In this document: piece by piece, positions 5,291 through 35,402 of the stretch
Position numbering within the stretch: position 1 is the stretch's first letter
How the letters are laid out: each line of letters opens with the position of its first letter
Source of the DNA: a virus
Strand: one strand, 5' to 3'
Virus record (IMG/VR): IMGVR_UViG_3300044712_000678
Span: 1 to 39,867 of that record
Length of the DNA: 39,867 nucleotides
Program-made: the position numbers and the translations under genes
Notes under the pieces: model-generated
The model's input: only the letters and a program-made list of their open reading frames with translations
Database searches by the model: none
What the model was told of the DNA's origin: nothing

Positions 5291-5611
5291 TTATTTTATA
5301 TCACCGTTTAAAGCATCGGCGATTATTTTCCCGGATTTTGGGAAGAGTTTTGTTATTTCTTTTCCAAGCTCATATTTTAATTTATATCTATCAAAATTTG
5401 ACATTGGCCTTTTTAAATATTCGATGAAACAAAATGTAAAATCTGACAAATCATTATTTTCTATATTTTTTTGACTTTCAATTTTCCGTCTTTTCTCATC
5501 CAATAACATCGCATTCCCTTGCCACATTCTAACCATGCGCGGATCGCTGGCATTAATCCCGGCGATAATGCATTTTTCTTCCCTGTGTTTTAACTGCTGG
5601 TAAACTGTCAT
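5291..5611 (-). CDS. Hypothetical protein, 106 aa, first gene after the structured leader
   Basis: I chose the ATG at 5609-5611 because AGGAG lies 8 nt upstream; the longer frame to 5680 would run through the hairpin leader. Sequence is charged, with DPRMVRMWQGNAMLLDEKRRKIESQKN likely helical. It precedes the primase by 6 nt. No family recognised. Its place directly behind the leader makes it the first product of this transcription unit, a usual place for an early regulator or replication accessory protein, which is inference. Confidence 0.75.
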   Translation of the reverse strand: MTVYQQLKHREEKCIIAGINASDPRMVRMWQGNAMLLDEKRRKIESQKNIENNDLSDFTFCFIEYLKRPMSNFDRYKLKYELGKEITKLFPKSGKIIADALNGDIK

Positions 5612-5636
5612 TTTGAGTCTCCTATTAATAAAATAA

Positions 5637-5745
5637 AAAGAGGTTTCAACCAGAGATCCCCGATGGAGCGGGTAAGGCAAAACTAGCGGCGGCTAATCAT
5701 GCCCGATCTCTGATAAAAACCTCTTTATTTTCTTCGTGCCGCCGC
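5637..5745 (-). ncRNA. Structured 5' leader, candidate transcription attenuator or RNA switch
   Basis: Read on the minus strand, the leader can form a 10-bp helix (5717-5726 with 5637-5646) stacked on an 8-bp helix (5705-5712 with 5651-5658), both perfect. They enclose two hairpins: 5659-5672 (CCCG/CGGG), and 5676-5703 (GGCA/TGCC then TAGC/GCTA), making a three-way junction. The basal helix is followed by a T-rich run (TTTTTATTTTATT), like an intrinsic terminator. A competing 8-bp all-GC helix can form between 5738-5745 (GCGGCGGC in the RNA) and 5686-5693 (GCCGCCGC); it encloses the 5' strands of the two basal helices and so opposes them. I do not recognise a known riboswitch, ribozyme or tRNA. 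Confidence 0.6.
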
Positions 5746-5758
5746 ATCGATTTAATGA

Positions 5759-5787
5759 ATACTAAGCTCTGAAAATCTATTTGTCAA
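5759..5787 (-). promoter_or_regulatory. Sigma70-like promoter for the early/replication operon
   Basis: On the minus strand TTGACA (5782-5787), 17-bp spacer, TAGTAT (5759-5764). It starts 8 bp beyond the end of the last late gene, so transcription would begin near 5751 and pass through the structured leader into the primase operon. Confidence 0.65.
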
Positions 5788-5794
5788 GAGTTAT

Positions 5795-6409
5795 TTAAAA
5801 TCTTTTTAATACTTCTTGAGATATTCTTACGAATTCTTTTTCGATGACTGAACCTTTCATGTAGTGCTTCATAGCCTCAGTATGCCAGTGAGTTGGTTTT
5901 ACTTTTGCGGTTTTTTGTGCCAAGTTTCTAATCATGCGGATTTTATTTTTCTTTTTTCCGTATCTCTCAAAAATACCTAACTTTGCAGTTTTTCCGGCTT
6001 TTCCGACAAATAGCCCGCCCGATAACTGGCCAGCGTAATAACGCTTTTTTATTCTTGAGGCTTTATTTCCACCCCTGGCCCTGAGTGTCGGAATTGCCAA
6101 TGACTTCCCTTTTTTCGGTTTTCGTATCCCGCCCTCTTCCTGCATTCCCATAAACGGCGTGATTGATCCCGTGACCGCGTTTATTTTTTCGATCTTCGTT
6201 TTCGGATTCGCTTTCCAGAATTTTAGTCCGCCTTCTACATAGCGATTTCTTAATGTGAATTTAGTTCTAAGATTTTTTTGACTAGCATAATGGGCAAAAC
6301 CGGCCACTTGATTAAGAGTTTCCGCTATCACTATAGGATAAACTTTGTCTCCTAATGTCTTGAGTTGCTTTTCGTATTTTGCCCATTCTTTGCTATATCC
6401 AAGGCTCAT
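5795..6409 (-). CDS. Lambda gpZ-like tail/neck completion protein, 204 aa
   Basis: Very basic protein with a mid-section EEGGIRKPKKGKSLAIPTLRARGG (split motif: EEGG, then KGKSLAIP, then ARGG, about 91-114), which resembles the core of minor tail protein Z / HK97 gp10-like tail completion proteins. In that family the protein acts at the head-proximal tail end. Its place at the very end of the late operon, after the lysis genes, is unusual for that role. Gene starts 3 bp after the preceding small ORF. Assignment is by motif resemblance only. Confidence 0.55.
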   Translation of the reverse strand: MSLGYSKEWAKYEKQLKTLGDKVYPIVIAETLNQVAGFAHYASQKNLRTKFTLRNRYVEGGLKFWKANPKTKIEKINAVTGSITPFMGMQEEGGIRKPKKGKSLAIPTLRARGGNKASRIKKRYYAGQLSGGLFVGKAGKTAKLGIFERYGKKKNKIRMIRNLAQKTAKVKPTHWHTEAMKHYMKGSVIEKEFVRISQEVLKRF

Positions 6410-28147: not shown

Positions 28148-28176
28148 TTGCTATATTGTTTATATTGTGTTACAAT
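28148..28176 (+). promoter_or_regulatory. Promoter of the AbrB-like gene
   Basis: TTGCTA (28148-28153), 17-bp spacer, TACAAT (28171-28176). Transcription would begin near 28183, about 26 nt before the chosen start codon. Confidence 0.55.
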
Positions 28177-28208
28177 GTGTTAGAAATTGCATTTTTAAGG
28201 GGGTTTTT

Positions 28209-28442
28209 ATGGGTCGAAATTATGGAGAACTGAAAGCGCGGGTAGGAGTGTCTGGAAAATCGTCACTATGCGTGATTATTCCAAAGGCGTTTGCCAACCA
28301 ACTGCATTTACGAAAAAAGGATGATGTGATCGTCTGCTTAACAGAAAACAATGAACTTTTGTTAAAATTCATGCTCTCAGTAAATGATATTAAATCAAGG
28401 GCTTATAATGAGGACAGGAGAAATGATTTTGAAATTACGTAA
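28209..28442 (+). CDS. AbrB/MazE-like transcription regulator, 77 aa
   Basis: The only plus-strand gene. Start at ATG 28209-28211 with AAGGGGG upstream; the longer frame from 28167 begins before the likely transcription start. Sequence KARVGVSGKSSLCVIIPKAFANQLHLRKKDDVIVCLTENNELLLKF is the swapped-hairpin AbrB/SpoVT fold: strand, IPKAFANQL, then the second strand pair. Such proteins bind DNA as dimers and act as repressors or antitoxins. No toxin gene is next to it, so a role in lysis-lysogeny or copy control of the adjacent AT-rich region is my inference. Confidence 0.75.
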   Translation: MGRNYGELKARVGVSGKSSLCVIIPKAFANQLHLRKKDDVIVCLTENNELLLKFMLSVNDIKSRAYNEDRRNDFEIT

Positions 28443-28571: not shown

Positions 28572-29099
28572 TTATTCTTTTACAATTAAAGGGATTGATT
28601 TTTCCATCTCCATAATCGTTTTGACGATTTTGATATATTTTCTATATTCGACCCCGTGCAGTTTGTCGCCGTAGATTTTTTCTACGCGATCGACGAATTC
28701 ATAGAGAGTTCCGCGAAAGCATCCACATACAACTTGATTTTTATCATCAAGCCAGTATGTTGTCGTCTGCAATTCTCGACTCCCCATTATTTCGCCGGTA
28801 TACCGGCGGGGGTTTTGAGGAAAATTATCGCACGAAACGCACGAAACGCACGAACGGCACGAATCGCACGAAACGCACGAAACGCACAAAACGCACGAAA
28901 CGCACGAAACGCACGAAACGCACGAACGGCACGAATCGCACAAAACGCACGAACGGCACGAAACGCACGAAACGCAATTTATACAGTCTTTGCAGTTAAT
29001 CATTTTTTTCGATATTTCTTCCGATTCGATTTTGGTGTACAAATCGCAATCCCATTTGTTGCCGTTTTCGTCGACATAATAGCCATCAATCTTTTTCAT
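28572..29099 (-). CDS. Cysteine-repeat protein with C-terminal GSR/CGCF domain, 175 aa
   Basis: Residues 36-90 carry 19 cysteines at exact three-residue spacing (C-x-x repeats, mostly CVS, CRS, CDS, CVL). The N-terminus (about 1-34) is an ordinary charged segment. The C-terminus (about 103-175) has MGSRELQTTTYWLDDKNQVVCGCFRGTLYEFVDRVEKIYG, similar to a C-terminal domain I recall on repeat proteins from gut bacteria and phages. The repeat could form a metal-binding or disulphide-bonded rod. It is last in its operon, behind two very small genes. The start codon overlaps the upstream stop by 14 bp. Biological role unknown. Confidence 0.8.
   Translation of the reverse strand: MKKIDGYYVDENGNKWDCDLYTKIESEEISKKMINCKDCINCVSCVSCRSCVLCDSCRSCVSCVSCVSCVLCVSCVSCDSCRSCVSCVSCDNFPQNPRRYTGEIMGSRELQTTTYWLDDKNQVVCGCFRGTLYEFVDRVEKIYGDKLHGVEYRKYIKIVKTIMEMEKSIPLIVKE
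28829..28976. repeat. Tandem 9-bp repeat array (about 16.5 copies)
   Basis: Units of CGCACGAAA and one-base variants (CGCACGAAC, GGCACGAAT, CGCACAAAA) in strict 9-bp register, encoding the C-x-x repeats on the minus strand. A longer block reading DSCRSCVSCVSC occurs twice, so the array has grown by unequal duplication. Not a CRISPR array: there are no spacers. Confidence 0.92.
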
Positions 29100-29446: not shown

Positions 29447-29475
29447 AATATAACCAAAGCGCTTTGGTTTGTCAA
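29447..29475 (-). promoter_or_regulatory. Strong sigma70 promoter with operator in its spacer
   Basis: TTGACA (29470-29475), 17-bp spacer, TATATT (29447-29452), driving the three small leftward genes. A 16-bp perfect palindrome fills the spacer, so a bound dimer would block RNA polymerase. Confidence 0.78.
29453..29468. promoter_or_regulatory. 16-bp perfect palindrome operator ACCAAAGCGCTTTGGT
   Basis: Perfect dyad lying wholly between the -35 and -10 boxes. The ribbon-helix-helix protein encoded at 29634-29819 or the AbrB-like regulator are candidates to bind it. Confidence 0.7.
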
Positions 29476-34825: not shown

Positions 34826-34870
34826 AAAAAAAATTGTGCGGTCAAAGGAACTTCTGATCGACTCCCGCAC
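34826..34870 (-). terminator. Intrinsic terminator/attenuator just before the recT pair
   Basis: Minus-strand stem GTGCGG/CCGCAC (34865-34870 with 34836-34841), 23-nt loop, then eight T residues (34826-34833) that run into the ribosome binding site of the next gene. An alternative GGTCA/TGACC pairing uses part of the same 3' strand, so the terminator could be switchable. Confidence 0.6.
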
Positions 34871-35112
34871 ATGACCGGATTATATACCCCGGCGTCAGTT
34901 ATAAGGTTTTCCATACAACCCCAGCATGAAACATGGTGATTGTTTTTGTGTCCCTTTATCGCGCTGAGGAATTGCACCTCATTTGATCCTAAAAATCATA
35001 GTAGAACTATCTACACGCGATAGGCGGGCTTTTCCGCCAAATCCACAATCCAAACCATAAAAACAAAGTAGAAACCATGCAACCCATGAATCAACGATTC
35101 ATATAGGCCGCT
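34871..35112 (-). ncRNA. Structured non-coding leader upstream of recT operon
   Basis: About 300 bp without a gene. Minus-strand RNA can form CGCGATA/TATCGCG (35016-35022 with 34957-34963) enclosing hairpins GTAGA-TCTAC (35001-35014) and TGAGG-CCTCA (34965-34981); hairpin GGCGG-CCGCC (35023-35038) is directly next to it. Further down, CCGG-CCGG (near 34874-34892) precedes the terminator. A weak promoter (TTGCAT, 17 bp, TATGGT, near 35050-35080) could start a separate transcript. No known RNA class recognised. Confidence 0.45.
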
Positions 35113-35366: not shown

Positions 35367-35402
35367 TATACTATAGTATACACGCAAAAAACCGGCTGTC
35401 AA
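35367..35402 (-). promoter_or_regulatory. Sigma70 promoter with 14-bp palindrome at the -10 box
   Basis: TTGACA (35397-35402), 16-bp spacer, TATACT (35375-35380) on the minus strand. The -10 lies inside a perfect palindrome TATACTATAGTATA (35367-35380), a probable operator. It drives the 75-residue gene and the leader-recT unit. Confidence 0.7.

Follow-up and report, generated by a model that had tools for sequence, protein, structure and literature searches.

The replication operon of phage P4 is controlled by premature termination. In the P4 CI RNA and the c4 immunity RNAs of P1 and P7 (RF01695), a short complementary element lies upstream and its partner is found in a loop of the same leader. 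Trp-type leaders and transcriptional riboswitches combine a promoter, two competing pairings, a terminator-like hairpin with a U-tract, a ribosome site, and an operon. The Gifsy-1 leader IsrK ends at a terminator, is read through to a longer mRNA, and adopts alternative structures; its terminated and read-through forms interact in trans, and its target is antirepressor translation (PMC4825925). HK022 putL and putR are structured RNAs placed directly behind early phage promoters; put spans about 70 nt in two stems and, through the beta' zinc-binding domain to which it binds, lets RNA polymerase pass terminators, without being a terminator itself (PMC9378689).

According to our analysis, the 39,867-base virus record IMGVR_UViG_3300044712_000678 (the whole stretch analyzed, here called the window) carries on its minus strand, at about 5752-5612, a structured region which we tentatively read, at somewhat less than an even chance, as an undescribed cis-acting folded 5' leader attenuating transcription of the replication operon. 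Like trp-type leaders and riboswitches, it has a promoter, a terminator-like hairpin with a U-tract, a ribosome site, and an operon in this order, together with a second pairing that may compete with the hairpin; here the operon is a phage replication operon, the terminator-like hairpin is branched, and there is no ligand class. The likeness to IsrK lies in the proposed termination, read-through, and alternative structures of a phage leader.

Nearly all recognized genes of the window are encoded on the minus strand. The terminase, portal, head, and tail genes run from 27.5 kb down to 5.8 kb and are followed by the leader, a 106-aa gene, an 890-aa primase gene, and a helicase-methyltransferase gene which runs off window position 1. 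Further replication genes, including those for a second helicase, RecE, RecT, and SSB, occupy the region between 39.8 and 28.5 kb. The record appears to represent a circular genome opened within the helicase-methyltransferase gene, and its two ends are neighbors in IMGVR_UViG_3300044477_000069 (G001), a record of 39,289 bases with a short terminal repeat; since the reading frame stays broken when the window's own ends are joined, a few bases may be absent there. An Rz-like spanin hints at a Gram-negative host. The primase is only 27% identical to its best match among named phages, and a host search with a primase profile over genome contigs returned distant matches only and found no host. Among the few plus-strand genes, a MazE/AbrB-like gene (28167-28442; Pfam PF04014) is located between the early and late regions. 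On the minus strand, a cysteine-rich open reading frame (28572-29099) contains, at 28840-28980, near-repeats of TCGTGCGTT, encoding Ser-Cys-Val and similar units.

The last late gene ends at 5795, and directly behind it begins a promoter composed of TTGACA (5787-5782), a 17-nt spacer, and TAGTAT (5764-5759), from which the leader RNA probably starts near 5752. The good minus-strand promoter that the initial annotation had placed here is thus present, and both of its hexamers are kept in the sole relative with the leader (L002, in G001), where four spacer bases differ. The features of the locus are as follows.

5759 to 5787, minus strand: early promoter TTGACA-17-TAGTAT, seen in the sequence; hexamers identical in G001 (L002)
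5738 to 5745, minus strand: 5' tail GCGGCGGC, one strand of fold B; the sole sense-strand copy in the genome, identical in L002
5705 to 5731, minus strand: 5' strand of the basal helix P1; within a 48-nt run (5682-5729) identical in G001
5675 to 5704, minus strand: P2 arm; L002 has an unchanged 5' strand and an altered 3' strand, and still forms the arm
5686 to 5693, minus strand: GCCGCCGC, the other strand of fold B, equal to the P2 loop plus two closing pairs; identical in L002
5659 to 5672, minus strand: P3 arm, a short hairpin differing in sequence and length in L002
5630 to 5658, minus strand: 3' strand of P1, continuing into the U-tract; conserved in L002 except that one U-A pair is U.G
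5627 to 5639, minus strand: U-tract UUUUUAUUUUAUU at the base of P1; part of the strongest minus-strand hairpin plus T-run
5619 to 5623, minus strand: AGGAG, ribosome-binding site of the first early gene, seen in the sequence; unpaired in fold A
5291 to 5611, minus strand: first early gene, 106 aa, no assigned function; homologue in L002
2612 to 5284, minus strand: primase/helicase gene, 890 aa; phrog_35358, E=1.4e-67

The first of the two folds that had been proposed, a two-part basal helix around a three-way junction followed by a T-rich run, was recovered upon refolding of the leader. In this fold A, P1 comprises 9+10 bp and a single U.U mismatch and can be extended outward by as many as seven A-U pairs; it forms the three-way junction with P2 (12 bp) and P3 (4 bp); the T-run occupies 5639-5627. 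The leader has a minimum free energy (MFE) of -55.1 kcal/mol, whereas its shuffled versions average -33.5 (z -6.48), and none of 200 shuffles matched it. In a G+C-corrected MFE scan of 2,272 segments, each 140 nt long and drawn from both strands, the leader deviates most from the G+C trend, and in a simple search for hairpins ending at a T-run it is the strongest minus-strand site (-47.2), the next independent one scoring -29.6. That no structure in the genome is stronger, and no other terminator-like signal of the coding strand either, argues for attenuation, as does a terminator-like hairpin with its U-tract lying between the promoter and the first gene; however, the hairpin is long and branched, unlike textbook terminators. 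The U-tract sum, a rough measure, is 5.6 in the window and 5.5 in the relative.

Fold A contains five G.U pairs, which on the opposite strand would be A-C mismatches, and that strand folds worse in both phages (-55.1 vs -43.1 kcal/mol in the window, about -51.4 vs -34.7 in the relative). Hence, selection seems to act on the minus-strand leader RNA, and the much better folding of the RNA strand in the two phages also speaks for attenuation. A perfect DNA palindrome or cruciform is unlikely, since the five G.U pairs work solely in the minus-strand RNA. A basal helix of 19-26 bp, with the ribosome site of the first gene free just behind it, would also suit an element for mRNA processing or stability, which RNase III would cut or which would shield the 5' end of the early mRNA, with no termination control involved. 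We deem this quite improbable, because it leaves unexplained the conserved U-tract at the helix base and the 8-bp pairing between tail and loop.

That pairing, fold B, was found exactly at the coordinates given by the initial annotation: GCGGCGGC (5745-5738) pairs with GCCGCCGC (5693-5686) over exactly 8 bp, all G-C, with mismatches flanking both ends. No such helix arose in 20,000 mononucleotide-shuffled leaders. As GCCGCCGC is rather common on the coding strand, with eight sense-strand copies, a fairer figure than that of the shuffles is the chance that one of them lies no more than about 60 nt from the only sense-strand GCGGCGGC, which is near 0.01. Fold B had also been said to trap the 5' strands of fold A; this applies to the P2 loop and the two top pairs of P2, the only parts which it overlaps, while the 5' strand of the basal helix is enclosed by fold B without pairing to it.

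When 70-79 nt of RNA have emerged, the MFE structure is fold B in the window and in the relative alike; fold A takes the lead at about 82 nt and beyond. Converting B directly into A, by a route restricted to pseudoknot-free intermediates, would require about 17-25 kcal/mol for the window and 20-34 for the relative, values that are upper bounds owing to this restriction. Given this order and this cost, fold B would form first in the folding model and could persist, as befits the attenuator reading. However, the description of the two folds as incompatible proved too strong. Since the 8 nt correspond to the P2 loop plus its two closing pairs, both folds can, according to the energy model, be present together in a pseudoknot of loop and tail: with its 8-nt loop left free, fold A amounts to -43.3 and the duplex to -17.5, the sum before any pseudoknot penalty being near plain fold A (-55.1), and the same is true of the relative before the penalty. 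The proposed two-state switch is thus upheld in part, in that the competing pairing is kept in the relative and the folding order fits a kinetic switch, but coexistence is possible. The pairing by which an attenuator would block its terminator is conserved, but may be a pseudoknot contact within fold A and not a competitor.

The reading built on such a contact is a terminator with a built-in pseudoknot which does not switch, the tail and the P2 loop steadying fold A; it would end late transcripts and trim early transcription by a fixed fraction. We consider it unlikely, though a serious alternative. In its favor, the stretch of 8 nt coincides precisely with the P2 loop and its two closing pairs, the following A-U pair of P2 (5694-5685) marking its limit, and the energies before the penalty are nearly equal in both phages. 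On the other hand, the tail must pass a helix of 19-26 bp to reach the P2 tip, which needs P2 to fold back, and a fixed strong stop before replication genes would be costly. Competition and coexistence predict opposite effects of tail mutations on termination.

The only relative with the leader, L002, has a primase 78% and a terminase 89% identical to those of the window. It keeps the promoter hexamers, the tail, P1, the U-tract, and the GCCGCCGC element, and differs throughout P3 and in the 3' strand of P2. Its leader also folds into a three-way junction (about -51.3 kcal/mol, z -5.5), in which a bulged P2 forms again. Pairing survives most of the changes (U-A to U.G, G.U/G-C exchanges), and four pairs are altered one-sidedly and still paired, while some P2/P3 pairs are shifted; under a fixed alignment, two pairs of P2 and a portion of P3 are lost or displaced. 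When the variable arm was replaced at random, it equaled the real arm of the relative in 4.9% of 2,000 trials. The compensatory changes that the initial annotation had called for did not appear: with one relative to look in, none was two-sided. The comparison lends moderate support to fold A, covariation being absent, while the 8-bp pairing, being invariant, is beyond a covariation test. Mostly pair-keeping changes and the order of fold B then fold A in both phages argue for attenuation; against it stands the lack of two-sided covariation in only two genomes.

The leader core is 92% identical between the two phages, compared with 79% for the preceding gene and 61% for the following gene. Identity alone proves little, however, since the 48-nt identical run at 5682-5729 is exceeded by many runs in late genes. 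The farther relatives L003 (primase identity 45-47%) and L023 (51%) do without the leader, which weighs against attenuation. At the position of the leader they have a TTGACA promoter followed by a short gene (L003:4826-5060, L023:4900-5130), the product of which resembles, by sequence, a ribbon-helix-helix protein. Scans of IMG/VR with the primase, a tail protein, the terminase, and leader DNA patterns detected the leader only in L002, the other pattern matches being chance ones; other structured gaps in relatives were not similar to it, and blastn against phages and plasmids gave only short chance matches or none. As a covariance model run over related records found only the window and L002, one searched set having no positive control, the leader family is either narrow or its relatives are absent from the collections searched.

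In agreement with the statement that no known class was recognized, the leader matches no Rfam 15 family at the gathering threshold and nothing credible at E<=10. With two members and data at the sequence level, it is a good candidate and not an established RNA class. Peptide-leader attenuation was rejected: a possible reading frame of 16-17 codons has its ATG/TTG at the same place in both phages, but a 1-nt indel shifts the frame in the relative, and there is no ribosome site.

The resemblance to P4 CI and c4 raises the prospect that the terminated leader is a stable trans-acting small RNA, the P2 loop of which would bind the tail of a nascent leader, block fold B, and so lead to termination. 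This is improbable in our estimate. Short complementary elements, one upstream and one in a loop of a single leader before the replication operon, would fit it, and the trans interaction of the two IsrK transcript forms offers a precedent (PMC4825925). Unlike P4 CI and c4, however, the window has no second target downstream, GCGGCGGC occurring once on the sense strand with no 1-mismatch copy near the first early genes; c4 antisense RNA (RF01695) gave no match at the gathering score or at E up to 10; and, as neither an integrase nor a repressor was recognized among the genes scanned, there is no sign of lysogeny.

The initial annotation had also likened the leader to put. A put-like RNA would bind RNA polymerase so that later terminators are ignored, and the position directly behind an early promoter is that of putL (PMC9378689). 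Yet the leader itself ends in a terminator-like hairpin, whereas put is a non-terminator, and forms a three-way junction of about 100 nt instead of two stems of about 70 nt. In the strict sense, the comparison is therefore unsupported, and we regard this explanation as very improbable.

As to the reach of the leader, the claim that it gates all later early genes was overstated. Conserved promoter-like sites shared with G001 are also found at 35402, 33125, and 29475, from which later early genes could be expressed independently of it. From 5.6 kb to 35.4 kb through the record ends, no other strong minus-strand promoter-like site is shared with G001. Any stop at this place must therefore be passed to make the replication genes, and the leader, as far as the promoter sequences tell, would gate about 10 kb, from primase to RecE. 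Conserved hexamers in the sole conserved strong promoter before this stretch favor attenuation.

Three further minus-strand sites were observed near these promoters. The promoter at 29447-29475 has an 18-nt perfect palindrome, AACCAAAGCGCTTTGGTT, between its hexamers; in its counterpart in G001, AACCCATGCGCTTGGGTT, one of the changes is symmetric, which is the pattern that a repressor operator would show. Behind the promoter at 35402, a noncoding gap of 280 nt holds a cloverleaf-like stretch (34957-35022) with a 7-bp TATCGCG/CGCGATA stem and a T-arm-like hairpin, which was called neither by ARAGORN at default settings nor by Rfam; a similar cloverleaf in G001 has a longer anticodon-like arm and is called a tRNA only under relaxed settings. 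Possibly, it is a decayed or mimic tRNA. At the end of the same gap, a GC hairpin with T8 (34833-34875) immediately precedes the ribosome site of the following gene and is a second terminator-like site standing before a gene.

The attenuator and riboswitch logic of the initial annotation holds as far as a terminator-like leader stands before the replication operon; that fold A terminates, that fold B prevents this, and that the balance is regulated is what we infer. In the attenuation mechanism that we propose, RNA polymerase would start near 5752, and once the first 70-80 nt have emerged the tail would pair with the loop through the eight G-C pairs of fold B. Were fold B to persist, the long basal helix could not fully wind and polymerase would read through to the 106-aa gene, the primase, the helicase-methyltransferase, and onward. 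Were the tail kept off, whether by slow transcription or by a protein or a second RNA, the hairpin with the three-way junction would close beside the U-tract and transcription would stop about 120 nt from its start. Late transcripts arriving from upstream would hit the same stop.

There is also a slim chance of a protein-free RNA feedback gate, in which the P2 loop of the terminated short RNA would bind the tails of new leaders and prevent fold B. If so, the replication operon of the phage itself, or of an incoming relative, would be shut down by an immunity RNA whose sequence has no relation to the P4 and P1 ones. The leader, a short candidate two-state RNA with every part specified, lends itself to study on plasmids and in vitro without the phage. 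If the attenuator works as proposed, RNA folding would gate the replication operon of these uncultured phages, and RNA control and the ribbon-helix-helix protein control of L003 and L023 would have been exchanged at one locus.
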